Below, piece after piece: positions 2,604-7,811 of a stretch of 8,126 bases of DNA; within the stretch, counting starts at the first letter, position 1, and each line of letters starts with the position of its first letter. The DNA comes from Desulfuromonas sp. (lineage in GTDB: Bacteria; Desulfobacterota; Desulfuromonadia; Desulfuromonadales; SZUA-401), in NCBI GenBank assembly GCA_002869605.1, contig PKUI01000178.1, positions 1 through 8,126 of the forward strand, in the 5' to 3' direction. Below the pieces are notes generated by a model that saw only the letters and a list, made by a program, of their open reading frames with translations, was not told the origin of the DNA and did not search any database. A program made the translations under genes and the position numbers.

Positions 2604-3119
2604 TTATTTCTCTTGATCTGGGGCTTGACCTTGAGTGAATGCCTGGCGCAGTTTCGCGACCCGCTTGCGATTCACACCGAGGTAGGAATAGCCGACGCGT
2701 GCTGCAGAGCGAACATGGATGCGTTGATTTTCCACGTCGACTCGAAACTCCACATCGTCGATAAACCTGAAAAGTCGTGAGGTGAATGTCGCCCACAAGT
2801 ACTCGCCGTCGTCCTGCTGGATAGTTCCACCGTGCAGTACGATAATCTGCTTAAGGGTTGTCCACGCCACGCTGGCTTCGCCATCGAAGATAAAGGGCTT
2901 CGTGAAGGCGCTGCTATCGGTTTCTTCACTCGAAACGCAGTTCGGAGACCCGGGACAGGGGGCGAGGTGTCCATCGAGTAGCCCTGGCGGCTGTTTTCCG
3001 CGTGAGGCGCAGGAGAGGATCAGCAGTGAGGTCACGATCAACGCAAACGTAAGCAGTAACATCGGTCTTCTCCGTTGCTGCCGGGTGGGCGCGGGCGTTT
3101 TTGTTGTCAGGGTCTTCAT
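2604..3119 (-). CDS. DUF1499 domain lipoprotein
   Basis: The 171-residue product shows the DUF1499 hallmarks: CPGSPNCVSS at residues 55-64 with two cysteines, a helical FDGEASVAWTTLKQII region, and VGYSYLGVNRKRV at 142-154. The N-terminus has a basic n-region (RQQRRRP), a hydrophobic stretch at about 20-35 and a lipobox-like ILSC with Cys37, so it is probably a lipoprotein exported by Sec and anchored in the envelope. The n-region is rather long; an internal Met20 could also start it, but ATG at 3119 has an AAGG 7-8 nt upstream. DUF1499 proteins have no firmly established function that I can name. It heads an apparent unit with the one-TM PH-like protein (2-nt gap) and the thioesterase. Confidence 0.87.
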   Translation of the reverse strand: MKTLTTKTPAPTRQQRRRPMLLLTFALIVTSLLILSCASRGKQPPGLLDGHLAPCPGSPNCVSSEETDSSAFTKPFIFDGEASVAWTTLKQIIVLHGGTIQQDDGEYLWATFTSRLFRFIDDVEFRVDVENQRIHVRSAARVGYSYLGVNRKRVAKLRQAFTQGQAPDQEK

Positions 3120-3268: not shown

Positions 3269-3859
3269 TCAGCTCAGAGGACCGGAGGTTGTTTTAACCT
3301 GCTGCGCCATTTGGGTGTCGCGTAGCCACATGATCTCGACATTGCGCTTGGCGAATCGCCTAGCGGCTTCGACGTTAGCGTGCAGGATGTCGACCCGTTT
3401 CCTCCAGCGCTTGTTCATGCGGTCTTCAACACGAAACAGTCCCATCCCTTTGATGATGACGAAATCGCCCAGCTGCACGCCGAGCTCCTCGAGGTCGCGG
3501 CTGACGGCAACGACTCCGACGCGTGACGGGGTGCCGCTGGCGGTGATCCATGGCTGCGCGTTGCACTCCTCTTTGCGCGCCGAGTAGGCGGTTGCGGTGA
3601 CCTTCAGGGTCTCTAGCGGCTGGTCGCTGTACTCCTGTAACATGGCCTGCGAGACGATCTGCTTGAGCTGATCGATCTTGGCCGCCTGGGCCTCGATCAG
3701 TTCTTGCTTGGCTGTTAACTCTGCCTTATGAGAGGCGGCATTGTGCGCGGCGACCTTTTCGGCAAAACGTTCCTGCCGATAGACTCCCTTGAGGGTGCCA
3801 CCGATAAGGCACAGCCCCACGGCGAAGACACACAGTGTACGCAGTAGTAAGATTCGCAT
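3269..3859 (-). CDS. 3D-domain envelope protein, under riboswitch control
   Basis: The 196-residue product has a membrane segment or signal anchor at residues 4-25, a charged heptad-like region at about 28-75 (likely coiled coil), and a C-terminal 3D domain at about 87-178. Visible 3D-domain features are TATAYSA (88-94), TASGTPSRVGVVAVSRDL with D122, GDFVIIKG with D132, VEDRMNKR with D146 and RVDIL with D157, followed by EIMWLR. The 3D domain is named for its three conserved Asp residues and is the double-psi barrel of MltA-type lytic transglycosylases and related wall proteins; here it would face the periplasm and may act on peptidoglycan, which is inference. The frame is open to 4093, but ATG at 3859 is chosen because AGGGGAGG (3866-3873) lies 6 nt before it; ATG at 3865 abuts that site. 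A GEMM-I riboswitch precedes it. Confidence 0.88.
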   Translation of the reverse strand: MRILLLRTLCVFAVGLCLIGGTLKGVYRQERFAEKVAAHNAASHKAELTAKQELIEAQAAKIDQLKQIVSQAMLQEYSDQPLETLKVTATAYSARKEECNAQPWITASGTPSRVGVVAVSRDLEELGVQLGDFVIIKGMGLFRVEDRMNKRWRKRVDILHANVEAARRFAKRNVEIMWLRDTQMAQQVKTTSGPLS

Positions 3860-3882
3860 GATCATCCTCCCCTGAAACGTAT

Positions 3883-3948
3883 CGAGCCCTCTTCGGCCGG
3901 AGAGAGCTCGCGACGCCGTAGTGCAGCCCCTGTGGCTGAGGCGGCGTC
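3883..3948 (-). promoter_or_regulatory. Expression platform: two stable leader hairpins
   Basis: Between the aptamer and the start codon the RNA can form two hairpins. The first pairs GACGCCG with CGGCGTC (3942-3948 / 3912-3918) and encloses CAGCC / GGCTG (3934-3938 / 3924-3928). The second pairs 3901-3910 with 3883-3892 over 10 bp with one G-U, loop 3893-3900. Neither has a T tract, so they are not simple terminators. The CTCTCC at 3899-3904 can alternatively pair with GGGGAG of the Shine-Dalgarno (3867-3872), which would allow switching of ribosome access. Confidence 0.55.
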
Positions 3949-3950
3949 TG

Positions 3951-4030
3951 GTTCTTCGGCAGCCCGGCGATCCGCATGGGATCCGTAGCTTTGCGTCACT
4001 GGATTGCTTCAGCTTTGCTCTTGTCGGAAC
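3951..4030 (-). promoter_or_regulatory. GEMM-I cyclic-dinucleotide riboswitch aptamer (GEMM-Ib-like, candidate 3',3'-cGAMP sensor)
   Basis: The minus strand holds the GEMM-I core in order: CGACAAGAGCAAAGC (4026-4012), a short stem capped by a GCAA (GNRA) tetraloop (4004-4007), GACGCAAAGC (3997-3988), a 5-bp stem GATCC/GGATC (3979-3983 / 3969-3973) and GCCGGGCTGCCGAA (3968-3955). The outer helix closes with GTTC (4027-4030) and GAAC (3951-3954). In known GEMM-I structures the tetraloop docks on a receptor in the other arm and the ligand sits between G20, A47 and C92 (Vc2 numbering). I align these with A4019, A3992 and C3959. The A at the G20 position is the feature of GEMM-Ib riboswitches from Geobacter-type bacteria that prefer cGAMP. 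The aptamer ends 91 nt before the start of the 3D-domain gene. The class is clear by eye; ligand choice is inferred. Confidence 0.88.
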
Positions 4031-4185
4031 GATATTTTTTTGTCCCGCTCCGGATGGTGGCTGTGAGCGGAGTCGATTCACCCGGTGTGTCAAAACACTG
4101 TCATGGTGAACCGCCTATGCCGATAATTAGCAAGACACAGGCCGAAATTTAAAAATGTGTTAAGGGGATGTTTAGCTAGCTTAAA
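4031..4185. other. Intergenic region upstream of the riboswitch
   Basis: This AT-richer gap lies between the lipoprotein stop and the riboswitch and should contain the riboswitch promoter (minus strand). No convincing -35/-10 pair could be set. Seen are the palindrome AGCTAGCT (4174-4181), a direct repeat TGACAGTG / TGACACAC on the minus strand near 4089-4106, and an inverted pair CCGCTC / GAGCGG (4045-4050 / 4065-4070 approximately) that is followed on the minus strand by an A run, not a T run, so it is not a terminator for that strand. Confidence 0.3.
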
Positions 4186-4644
4186 TTATTGATTTTTTTG
4201 GTTGATGTTGCGCTCGATGGAGAGCCTTGGCGGGGTTTTGGGGTCCTGGTAGGCTTCGATGATTATCCGGTCTGCTGCATCGTCGGCACGCAGGACCACC
4301 TGCTTGCCGAGGCCAGGGTCGGGGCGTCTGGCAACCAGCGCGACAGTCGCGGGGAGTGCCGGGATCCCGGCGCTGCGCAGCTGTTGCTGTTCCATTTCGT
4401 CCAGGGCCAGAGGCCACTCGGCGACGCCGAGGTCAGAGAAGATATAGCCGACGAACTGAGACGGTTTTGCCTCGGGGAAAAGATAGCGGAAGCTGGAACG
4501 GGAGAGAAAGCGTTCACTGGTCATGTAGCGTGCAGCATTGACCGCCTGCTGCAGGTCGTGGTCGAGCCGCTGTCCGCTGCAGGCAACGGAGATCAGGAGC
4601 AGGGTGGTCAGGGCCAGTTTAAGCAGGAGGGGTCTGGTTTTCAT
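4186..4644 (-). CDS. Small lipoprotein of unknown function
   Basis: The 152-residue product begins with a clear lipoprotein signal: basic start MKTRPLLLK, hydrophobic stretch, and lipobox SVAC with Cys22. The mature part is soluble, with a helical, glutamine- and arginine-containing first half (DLQQAVNAARYMTSERFLSR) and a second half with strands (ATVALVARRP, QVVLRADDAADRIIIEAY). No family is recognised. Residue 23 is Ser, so the +2 rule does not predict retention in the inner membrane; an outer-membrane site is likely. Its ATG overlaps the stop of the methyltransferase gene as ATGA (4641-4644), so translation of the two is probably coupled. It is the last gene of the TsaA/methyltransferase cluster; no clear terminator follows its stop. 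Confidence 0.8.
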   Translation of the reverse strand: MKTRPLLLKLALTTLLLISVACSGQRLDHDLQQAVNAARYMTSERFLSRSSFRYLFPEAKPSQFVGYIFSDLGVAEWPLALDEMEQQQLRSAGIPALPATVALVARRPDPGLGKQVVLRADDAADRIIIEAYQDPKTPPRLSIERNINQKNQ

Positions 4645-5665: not shown

Positions 5666-6139
5666 TTAGGTAAAGCGTTTGTCCGAGGTGTGGCGGGTGA
5701 CATCACTGTCGGACTTTTCAAACCAGCCGGTGCGCACCTCACCGCGGCTGTCGAATTGCGGAACATACGGCTTGATATCTAGCAGCGGCGTCCCGTCGAG
5801 TACGTCGATCCCCTTGATATGCAGAATGTTTCCCTCGACCCTCTCCAGGTGAACCACCGACAGGCCGATCGGGTTGGGACGTTTCGGTGCGCGCGTGGCT
5901 AACAGTCCGCGCGGCACCTTGTCCATGAAGGGGGTCACCTCGAGTTTGTAGCCTTCGCTGCGGTGGAATTGGTAGATCAGGATCAGGTGTGAGAAGCCTT
6001 CGAGGTCCTTGAGGCCGGCCGCGAACTCCCCGTTTACGACGACAGTGCCTTGCACCTCACTTGCCCCGGCAGGCTGGATCGGCATGCCCTCCAAGTCGGT
6101 AAACGGGGTGTGGATGGTTCCGATCGGTGTGCATTCCAT
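5666..6139 (-). CDS. tsaA: TsaA/TrmO-domain protein, short form (1)
   Basis: The 157-residue product is a TsaA-like (UPF0066, TrmO N-terminal) protein. It has PIGTIHTPF at 5-13, then EGFSHLILIYQFHRSEG, the SAM-binding signature TRAPKRPNPIGLSVV at 82-96 and DVLDGTPLLDIKPYVP at 112-127. In E. coli, TrmO uses SAM to N6-methylate t6A37 of certain tRNAs and is about 235 residues, with a C-terminal domain; this protein lacks that domain, as do many archaeal and deltaproteobacterial homologues, so the tRNA role is uncertain. An AAAGGA ribosome site lies 10 nt before ATG. It follows a second, divergent TsaA-domain gene and precedes the HXXEE gene by 20 nt. Confidence 0.9.
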   Translation of the reverse strand: MECTPIGTIHTPFTDLEGMPIQPAGASEVQGTVVVNGEFAAGLKDLEGFSHLILIYQFHRSEGYKLEVTPFMDKVPRGLLATRAPKRPNPIGLSVVHLERVEGNILHIKGIDVLDGTPLLDIKPYVPQFDSRGEVRTGWFEKSDSDVTRHTSDKRFT

Positions 6140-6153
6140 GTGTGTAGGTCCTT

Positions 6154-6231
6154 TCAGACGGCAACCTTACCCGCTGGCGACCAGGCGGTTAATCGGCAGG
6201 AAGGGCATGGCGGCAGGAGTTTGGCGTTCAT
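6154..6231 (-). CDS. Possible 25-aa peptide with CPSC motif, coupled to the upstream gene
   Basis: A short ORF starts at ATG 6229-6231, which overlaps the stop of TsaA-domain gene 2 as ATGA, and ends at TGA 6154-6156, 14 nt before the next gene. The peptide would contain CPSC at residues 9-12, a Cys-x-x-Cys pair as in small metal-binding proteins, followed by RLTAWSPAGK. The overlap suggests coupled translation and would fill most of the otherwise odd 88-nt gap inside the operon. There is no homologue known to me and the peptide is very short, so it may be chance. Confidence 0.3.
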   Translation of the reverse strand: MNAKLLPPCPSCRLTAWSPAGKVAV

Positions 6232-6647
6232 GCTCGTACGTTCTCTCCCGCTGTGTCCTCACCCTGCCGTGCCGGCTTGATGTCGAGCAGAGGGGTGCCC
6301 GAGAGACAGTCGAGCCCGCGCACGTAGATCGTGGTTCCCTCGATTTTTTCGATCCGGACCACCGCGGCACCGATCGGGTTGGGGCGGTTGGGGGTGCGCA
6401 GGGCAAAGATCCCTGCGTACTCGCCGCTCTTACGCGAGGTCTGCCGCCGGCGGGTGCGGTCTACATGCTCGAACCAGTAAAGGATCAGGATATCCCTGCC
6501 CGCCTCGAGGCCGAGCAGCGCCTCGGACAGTTCGGCGTGTAGCTGAAGTTTGCACAGTGGACCATCAGGCTCGGTGTTGCGCGGACACTGCTCGAGGGTG
6601 GTATAGGGGGTCTCGATGCTGCCGATCGGCGTGAGCGTCGCATTCAT
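6228..6647 (-). CDS. TsaA/TrmO-domain protein, short form (2)
   Basis: The 139-residue product is a second TsaA/TrmO-domain protein: PIGSIETPY at 7-15, ILILYWFEHVDR (53-64), RTPNRPNPIGAAVV at 84-97 and GLDCLSGTPLLDIKPA at 111-126. It differs from its downstream neighbour across most positions, so the pair is not a recent duplication; this copy has two extra cysteines near the N-terminus (C21, C32) and a basic stretch (DRTRRRQTSRKSG) absent from the other. Like it, it lacks the C-terminal domain of E. coli TrmO. It probably binds SAM and methylates an unknown substrate, or together with the neighbour forms a heteromer. AGGAA lies about 6 nt before ATG. It is the first gene of the cluster. Confidence 0.87.
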   Translation of the reverse strand: MNATLTPIGSIETPYTTLEQCPRNTEPDGPLCKLQLHAELSEALLGLEAGRDILILYWFEHVDRTRRRQTSRKSGEYAGIFALRTPNRPNPIGAAVVRIEKIEGTTIYVRGLDCLSGTPLLDIKPARQGEDTAGENVRA

Positions 6648-6944: not shown

Positions 6945-7811
6945 TTAGCTGCGCAGGGTCTTGATCACGGCGGAGAAATCCTCCTCGCCGCGGCCATCTT
7001 TGTCGGCCTGGTCGAACAGGTTGCAGACGCACTCTACGCCGGGCAACTTGAGATCGGCCTTCTCGGCGGCGCTGCGTACCAGCTCCAGTTGTTCGTGTAC
7101 ATACTTGAGGGCCAGGTTACGGCTGAAGTCGCCGCGTGCGATCGAACGCCCCTTGGAATGAAAGAGCGGCGAGGCGACCCCACCGGAGTCGAGGACCTCG
7201 AGAATTTTGTCGGCCTGGAAACCGAGTTTCTCGCCGAGAACCAGCCCTTCGGCCAGTGCCTGCATCTGCTCGGCCTGCACCAGGTTGACCACGAACTTCA
7301 TGCGCGTACCGCTGCCGATTTCGCCGACGCGGATGATGTTGATTCCGATCAGGGAGAAGGCCTCGCGACAGCGGCTGAGCACCGACTCGTCACCGCCGAC
7401 CAGGATGGTCAGAAAACCGTGAGCCGCGTGTTCCTTGGTTCCCCAGACCGGGGCATCGAGGAACATGACGCGTTTGTCCGCTGCAGCCTCGGCGATCTCC
7501 AGGGTGCACTCCTGAGAGGTGGTCCCCATCCCGGCGAAGATCGTTCCCGGGTCGATTCCGGCGAAAAGCCCCTCCGGTCCGTAGATGTCTGGGCGTAGCG
7601 ATTCCTTCTCGGGGCGGATCATGATCACCAGGTCTTTGCCAGCGGCCGCCTCTTTGGGAGAAGCGACTCCCTTGGCGCCGAGTTTCTCCATCTCCTTGAC
7701 CACTTCCGGGTCCGAATCGAAGACGTCCATCTCGTATTTAGCCTTGAGCAGATTGGCGGCCATGTGCCTGCCGACCGTACCTAACCCGAGAAAACCAATT
7801 TTCTTGATCAT
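6945..7811 (-). CDS. NAD(P)-dependent beta-hydroxyacid dehydrogenase (HIBADH/GLYR family)
   Basis: The 288-residue product is a full-length beta-hydroxyacid dehydrogenase. The nucleotide-binding motif GLGTVG (9-14) starts the Rossmann domain; VFDSDPE after strand 2 has an acidic residue, which suggests NAD over NADP. The conserved catalytic Lys is K172 in GSGTRMKFVVN (166-176), with N176, and the helical C-terminal domain follows. The family oxidises 3-hydroxyacids or reduces aldehydes such as succinic semialdehyde or glyoxylate. The substrate-binding loop reads DAPVWGTKEHAAHG (119-132) where most members have DAPVSGG or DAPVSGS, so Trp replaces the usual Ser and the substrate may differ. AGGAGG lies 5 nt before ATG, a strong ribosome site. 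It seems to be monocistronic, with its own promoter and a hairpin after the stop. Confidence 0.9.
   Translation of the reverse strand: MIKKIGFLGLGTVGRHMAANLLKAKYEMDVFDSDPEVVKEMEKLGAKGVASPKEAAAGKDLVIMIRPEKESLRPDIYGPEGLFAGIDPGTIFAGMGTTSQECTLEIAEAAADKRVMFLDAPVWGTKEHAAHGFLTILVGGDESVLSRCREAFSLIGINIIRVGEIGSGTRMKFVVNLVQAEQMQALAEGLVLGEKLGFQADKILEVLDSGGVASPLFHSKGRSIARGDFSRNLALKYVHEQLELVRSAAEKADLKLPGVECVCNLFDQADKDGRGEEDFSAVIKTLRS

Follow-up and report, generated by a model that had tools for sequence, protein, structure and literature searches.

The window, by which we mean the whole 8,126-nucleotide stretch of DNA analysed here, carries on its minus strand a GEMM-I (RF01051) aptamer of the A20 type at 3955..4029, within the 5' leader of the gene that encodes a 196-amino-acid protein (3269..3859, minus strand). 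The 3' end of the aptamer (3955) lies 95 nt before the ATG at 3859, on the same strand; this second ATG is preferred as the start of the gene by its spacing from the Shine-Dalgarno (SD) sequence AGGGGAGG (3873-3866, minus strand). Upstream of the aptamer, and not part of the switch, is a minus-strand gene (4186..4644) whose product looks lipoprotein-like by eye and is without a family match. Other minus-strand genes encode a DUF1499 protein (2604-3119, E 1.2e-33), two adjacent TrmO/TsaA-type tRNA methyltransferase paralogues (5666-6139 and 6228-6647) and a 3-hydroxyisobutyrate dehydrogenase-type reductase (6945-7811). The last of these serves as a marker of kinship: 27 of the 141 genomes examined from one order have it at 66-74% identity, so the host is probably a Desulfuromonadia-like bacterium outside the genera sampled. 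An inverted repeat noted by eye near 1355-1386 was dropped since the repeat finder returned none.

Scanning of the whole window with Rfam, the check that had been proposed when the aptamer was recognised by eye, matched 4029-3955 (minus strand) to RF01051 at 56.5 bits (E 2.8e-9, model positions 1-87), compared with a gathering score of 35 bits, and returned nothing else over a gathering score. All of the GEMM-I landmarks reported on this strand in the initial annotation, namely AGCAAAGC, a GCAA loop, GACGCAAAGC and GCCGGGCUGCCGAA, are present in the aptamer. With R1, a covariance model of six other A20 aptamers from which the window was left out, the window scores 67.8 bits. When 35 rows are aligned to the covariance model, 95.7% of cells pair and 19 of the 20 base pairs vary in both partners (2-8 in slid versions), figures that favour the model because the rows had been fitted to it. 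The initially annotated range, 3951-4030, adds to the Rfam match an extension of P1 in which, by eye, GUUC (4030-4027) pairs with GAAC (3954-3951); the pairs C4026-G3957 and G4025-C3958 complete our reading of this helix, whose 5' strand is GUUCCG (4025..4030, minus strand) and whose 3' strand (3951..3958, minus strand), likewise assigned by eye, forms when constrained in folding. The riboswitch of A20 kind at 3955..4029 is real.

The Rfam alignment and our position table put an A (4019) at the ligand-discriminating position, an intercalating A at 3992 and, at 3959, the C that base-pairs with the G of the ligand, all on the minus strand. The alignment sets UUCCGACAAGAGCAAA against uaaugaaAAaGGCAAA; A4019 falls on model position 11, which in the consensus is the first G of GGCAAA. 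It is thus A4019, and not a G, that the covariance alignment places in the G20 column, and the earlier reading of this site, like that of A3992 and C3959 as kept, is borne out. On the sequences and numbering assumed here, we take A4019 to correspond to Vc2 G20 and to A14 in the Geobacter cGAMP aptamer, A3992 to Vc2 position 47 and Geobacter A41, and C3959 to Vc2 position 92 and Geobacter C75. With this assumed mapping, and the aptamer of locus L161 as a stand-in for the usual GEMM-Ib, 10 of 13 Geobacter contact nucleotides are kept by position in the window. The departures are G4020 for U13 and the swapped pair G4018-C3993 for C15-G40. The 13 contacts are those given together by the available portions of PMC7288161 and PMC6274999 (G8, A9, A11, A12, U13, A14, C15, G40, A41, A42, G74, C75 and C76).

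The type of scaffold was examined in three relatives (G608, G347 and G547) from the order with the best matches to another window protein, the dehydrogenase at 6945-7811. Their GEMM-I matches number 82, and in the 74 that were listed the discriminating position is A in 50 and G in 24. Among these listed matches, 44 of the 50 A aptamers are without the following G, nearly all having the usual GEMM-Ib form AUACUAAACC...GACGGAAAGC or one close to it, and six share the window's form AAGAGCAAA...GACGCAGAG. Judged from its sequence, the window scaffold is of the c-di-GMP type with A20 and is distinct from the usual Geobacter GEMM-Ib. When R1 was run against 138 genomes of the order and 29 of the best loci were read, the assumed place held A in 17, G in 9 and C in one, and was unreadable in two; these loci are a sample of best scores and include some of the training aptamers. 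Two GEMM-I aptamers (L062 1501-1588 and L253 1501-1577) have C at the discriminating position, where an altered ligand is possible. Two further loci, L246 and L263 (from 1501), hold similar GEMM-I leaders with terminators before rplU/obg-like genes, as judged by eye; one is A20 and the other G20, a natural A/G exchange apparently at one site. At L171 and L148, G20 aptamers stand just 5' of GGDEF genes, a placement that suggests c-di-GMP feedback on its own synthesis.

Between the aptamer and the gene, folding and a terminator search define a putative expression platform (3866..3950, minus strand) of two predicted hairpins that ends in the SD. The region 3800-4300 is free of terminator-like sites, whereas the related aptamers at L139, L144 and L151 are followed, by eye, by a hairpin and a U run. 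Because no intrinsic terminator was found, control would be at translation initiation or Rho-type, and ligand binding would most likely turn the gene ON. Of five leader starts assumed, forcing P1 in the folding freed the SD (from 0.27-0.28 to 0.72-0.73) with two, 4045 and 4040, and did not free it with the other three, 4060, 4090 and 4110. An SD-antiSD duplex switch was dropped because shuffled sequences did as well in 87 of 1000 cases, which makes it no better than chance. A sigma-54-like site noted by eye near 4135 was also dropped, as it was absent among matches with at most two mismatches; three such matches were found and 8.3 expected, which is at or below chance. No sigma-70-type promoter was found on the minus strand in 3800-4300.

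For the downstream protein, the predicted fold is a long N-terminal helix and then a 3D/Sps-like double-psi beta-barrel with the conserved Asp residues that mark the 3D/Sps-like muralytic fold, and there is a weak profile match to YuiC. The family has no Pfam match below E 0.009, and the 3D domain, which we take to be PF06725, is absent from the 20 families matched by any of 25 members at E up to 1. Thus the wall-related target suggested in the initial annotation stands on the fold and the weak profile matches and finds no counterpart in Pfam. On the model, the protein is membrane-anchored, with a barrel like those of YuiC and MltA, and is probably murein-lytic. Homologues P0002-P0004 stand at 67-80% to it. 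No GEMM-I over the cut-off lies near distant homologues in the 21 loci scanned out of 32 (four of the 21, L002, L007, L020 and L031, have less than 300 nt upstream), nor near relatives of the wall gene at class level in 13 loci, so the pairing of the riboswitch with a 3D gene has been seen once. A search for the wall gene itself at E up to 1e-5, covering 117 genomes of the order, found none. By eye, none of the six same-scaffold aptamers in the three relatives precedes an obvious murein enzyme; the genes after them are cytochrome-like, secreted-protein-like and others. Next to the usual-type A20 aptamers, with 36 distinct genes and the best 25 of 41 families, we found YkuD L,D-transpeptidase twice and NlpC/P60 once, and the G20 neighbour-gene set (best 25 of 58 families) shares two genes with the A20 set.

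A sample of 282 genomes from a second phylum, which we infer to be probably Myxococcota, gave 84 GEMM-I matches in 46 genomes, 82 of them over the cut-off. The discriminating position is A in 10 of the 84, C in 1 and G in 73. Each of the ten A20 aptamers comes from a different genome; their core is that of the window, AAGAGCAAA (in one case AAAAGCAAA), and the AUG follows after 11 nt. For nine of them the next gene encodes an SLT lytic transglycosylase (Pfam, E 4e-12 to 1e-28); the tenth next gene, counted as a miss, is cut by the contig end and by eye resembles the gene at L060. SLT was absent from all 17 families found for 61 genes that follow G20/C20 aptamers, a set that leaves out the next genes of 13 further aptamers; next genes were picked by script and some may be wrong or cut. 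The association of A20 with SLT has a Fisher p of 1.3e-10, on rows that are not independent because the module was probably inherited once. The A20-linked transglycosylases share 33-57% identity with each other, which implies that A20 was retained through a long divergence. Five of the ten genomes (G024, G029, G068, G096 and G233) have both A20 and G20 aptamers, the G20 ones before other genes; in one of the five it is the next gene of the A20 aptamer that is cut by the contig end.

Four of the A20 genomes (G024, G029, G096 and G117) encode a response regulator-GGDEF protein that has Ser (GHLVGS...GGDEF) in place of the Asp which, on the precedent of PleD, we presume to contact guanine. The same residues (ghlvgs) are contained in PDB 6d9m, presumably GacA. 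A Ser at the guanine-contacting position is described for GacA in the available text of PMC8835794. Relatives of this Hypr-type cyclase (E up to 1e-70) were found in 56 of the 282 second-phylum genomes. They are present in all 10 A20 genomes versus 12 of the 36 GEMM-I genomes without A20 (p 1.6e-4, rows not independent). In 30 loci read, the motif has Ser in 27 and Thr in one, and two are without it. Of the ten A20 genomes, seven show the Ser (G024, G029, G082, G096, G117, G233 and G283), G002 has a partial match without the motif, and G068 and G161 lie outside the loci read. In the window's order, 43 loci read from 44 matches include Ser-type GGDEF genes, two in G608 and one in G347, together with one Thr-type gene in G347 and one Asn-type gene in G608. 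The host of the window may itself produce cGAMP.

What the window aptamer binds depends on how these observations are weighed. An A at the discriminating position is known to turn GEMM-I aptamers towards c-AMP-GMP; according to the available part of PMC9481103, it is with this nucleotide that the ligand's G or A base makes contact. The same source describes a variant of the window's sort that can bind both ligands, and since the window combines A20 with a c-di-GMP-type scaffold, we consider cGAMP sensing likely, possibly shared with c-di-GMP, and selectivity unproven. The proposal of a candidate 3',3'-cGAMP sensor in the initial annotation is accordingly retained in part: the A20, A41- and C75-type residues agree with it, while a preference for cGAMP is plausible but unproven and G4020 and G4018-C3993 differ. 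If A20 on such a scaffold relaxes specificity and does not switch it, the riboswitch would answer both ligands or mainly c-di-GMP. The window has the G-C pair and the purine of the c-di-GMP-type scaffold, making dual binding possible. The Desulfobacca A-variant, as described in part in PMC9481103, binds c-AMP-GMP markedly better and c-di-GMP perhaps slightly more weakly, so that it may have lost little c-di-GMP affinity, and the omcST riboswitch is reported to be sensitive to both ligands (PMC6456294, in the portion available). However, in half of the second-phylum A20 genomes there are G20 aptamers as well, and these stand ahead of other genes, a pattern that fits a separate signal for A20; we judge relaxed specificity to be the unlikely reading, though one to be taken seriously.

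It could also be argued that a true aptamer sits here with no regulatory role for the downstream gene, as an orphan or decaying leader. Such a view would account for the missing terminator-like site, for the lack of a robust SD switch in folding and for the absence of the pairing from the distant relatives scanned. Against this, the pocket landmarks and helices are intact, and the aptamer, on the strand of the gene, ends 95 nt before its start codon with a good SD in between; we regard an idle leader as improbable. That the match is a chance look-alike of GEMM-I is scarcely credible given the Rfam E-value and the score of the independent model.

We therefore favour, with a probability of about 0.6, an A20 GEMM-I riboswitch in the leader of the gene for a membrane-anchored, 3D/Sps-type, probable murein lytic enzyme; the aptamer would bind cGAMP at least as well as c-di-GMP and switch the gene ON. 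The wall connection, which depends on the modelled fold, is plausible and is strengthened by the independent association of A20 aptamers with transglycosylases. It would not be the first for the GEMM-Ib subclass, as GSU0181-0183 provide an earlier wall link (PMC6456294, in part). The cGAMP riboswitches described in the literature available to us are mostly tied to extracellular electron transfer. More tentatively, and at somewhat less than even odds, we suggest that a second A20 scaffold (AAGAGCAAA...GACGCAAAG) links Hypr-type cGAMP signalling in two phyla to enzymes that cleave peptidoglycan, SLT in the probable Myxococcota and the unrelated 3D/Sps-type in the window's lineage. Sensors of this type are known; a circuit leading from cGAMP to murein hydrolases in two phyla would be novel. 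Among the open-licence PMC matches listed, none dealt with cGAMP riboswitches that act on transglycosylases or murein, and the target lists of Kellenberger 2015 and Nelson 2015 may include transglycosylases. If A20 aptamers control murein lytic enzymes, also in a second phylum where a Hypr-type cyclase is conserved alongside them, wall remodelling would be among the roles of cGAMP, and the five genomes with both A20 and G20 aptamers form a natural experiment in which one base could separate two second-messenger regulons.

Among known systems, the usual Geobacter GEMM-Ib riboswitches (Gs1761, Gm0970 and pilM) share with the window the GEMM-I fold, the discriminating A and the equivalents of A41 and C75. 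They differ in the core, which is AGAGCAAAG with G-C in the window and AUACUAAAC with C-G in theirs (compared through the aptamers of G608, G347 and G547 and not the Geobacter records), in the target gene and in that the window has no terminator-like site. The A-variant of Desulfobacca acetoxidans may be likened to the window by description, being highly similar to neighbouring c-di-GMP aptamers apart from the A change; unlike the window aptamer, it stands in tandem with an AdoCbl riboswitch (PMC9481103, in part). Vc2 and its G20A mutant have the c-di-GMP-type scaffold in common with the window, and a crystal structure of the mutant with cGAMP (PDB 4YB1) is used in PMC6274999, as far as its available text goes; in the window the A is natural. 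On the side of the protein, the YuiC/Sps-type 3D muralytic proteins and MltA have the double-psi barrel and conserved Asp in common with the window protein, which matches the YuiC profile weakly, is without Pfam-level similarity to them and has a long N-terminal helix, its muralytic activity being putative.
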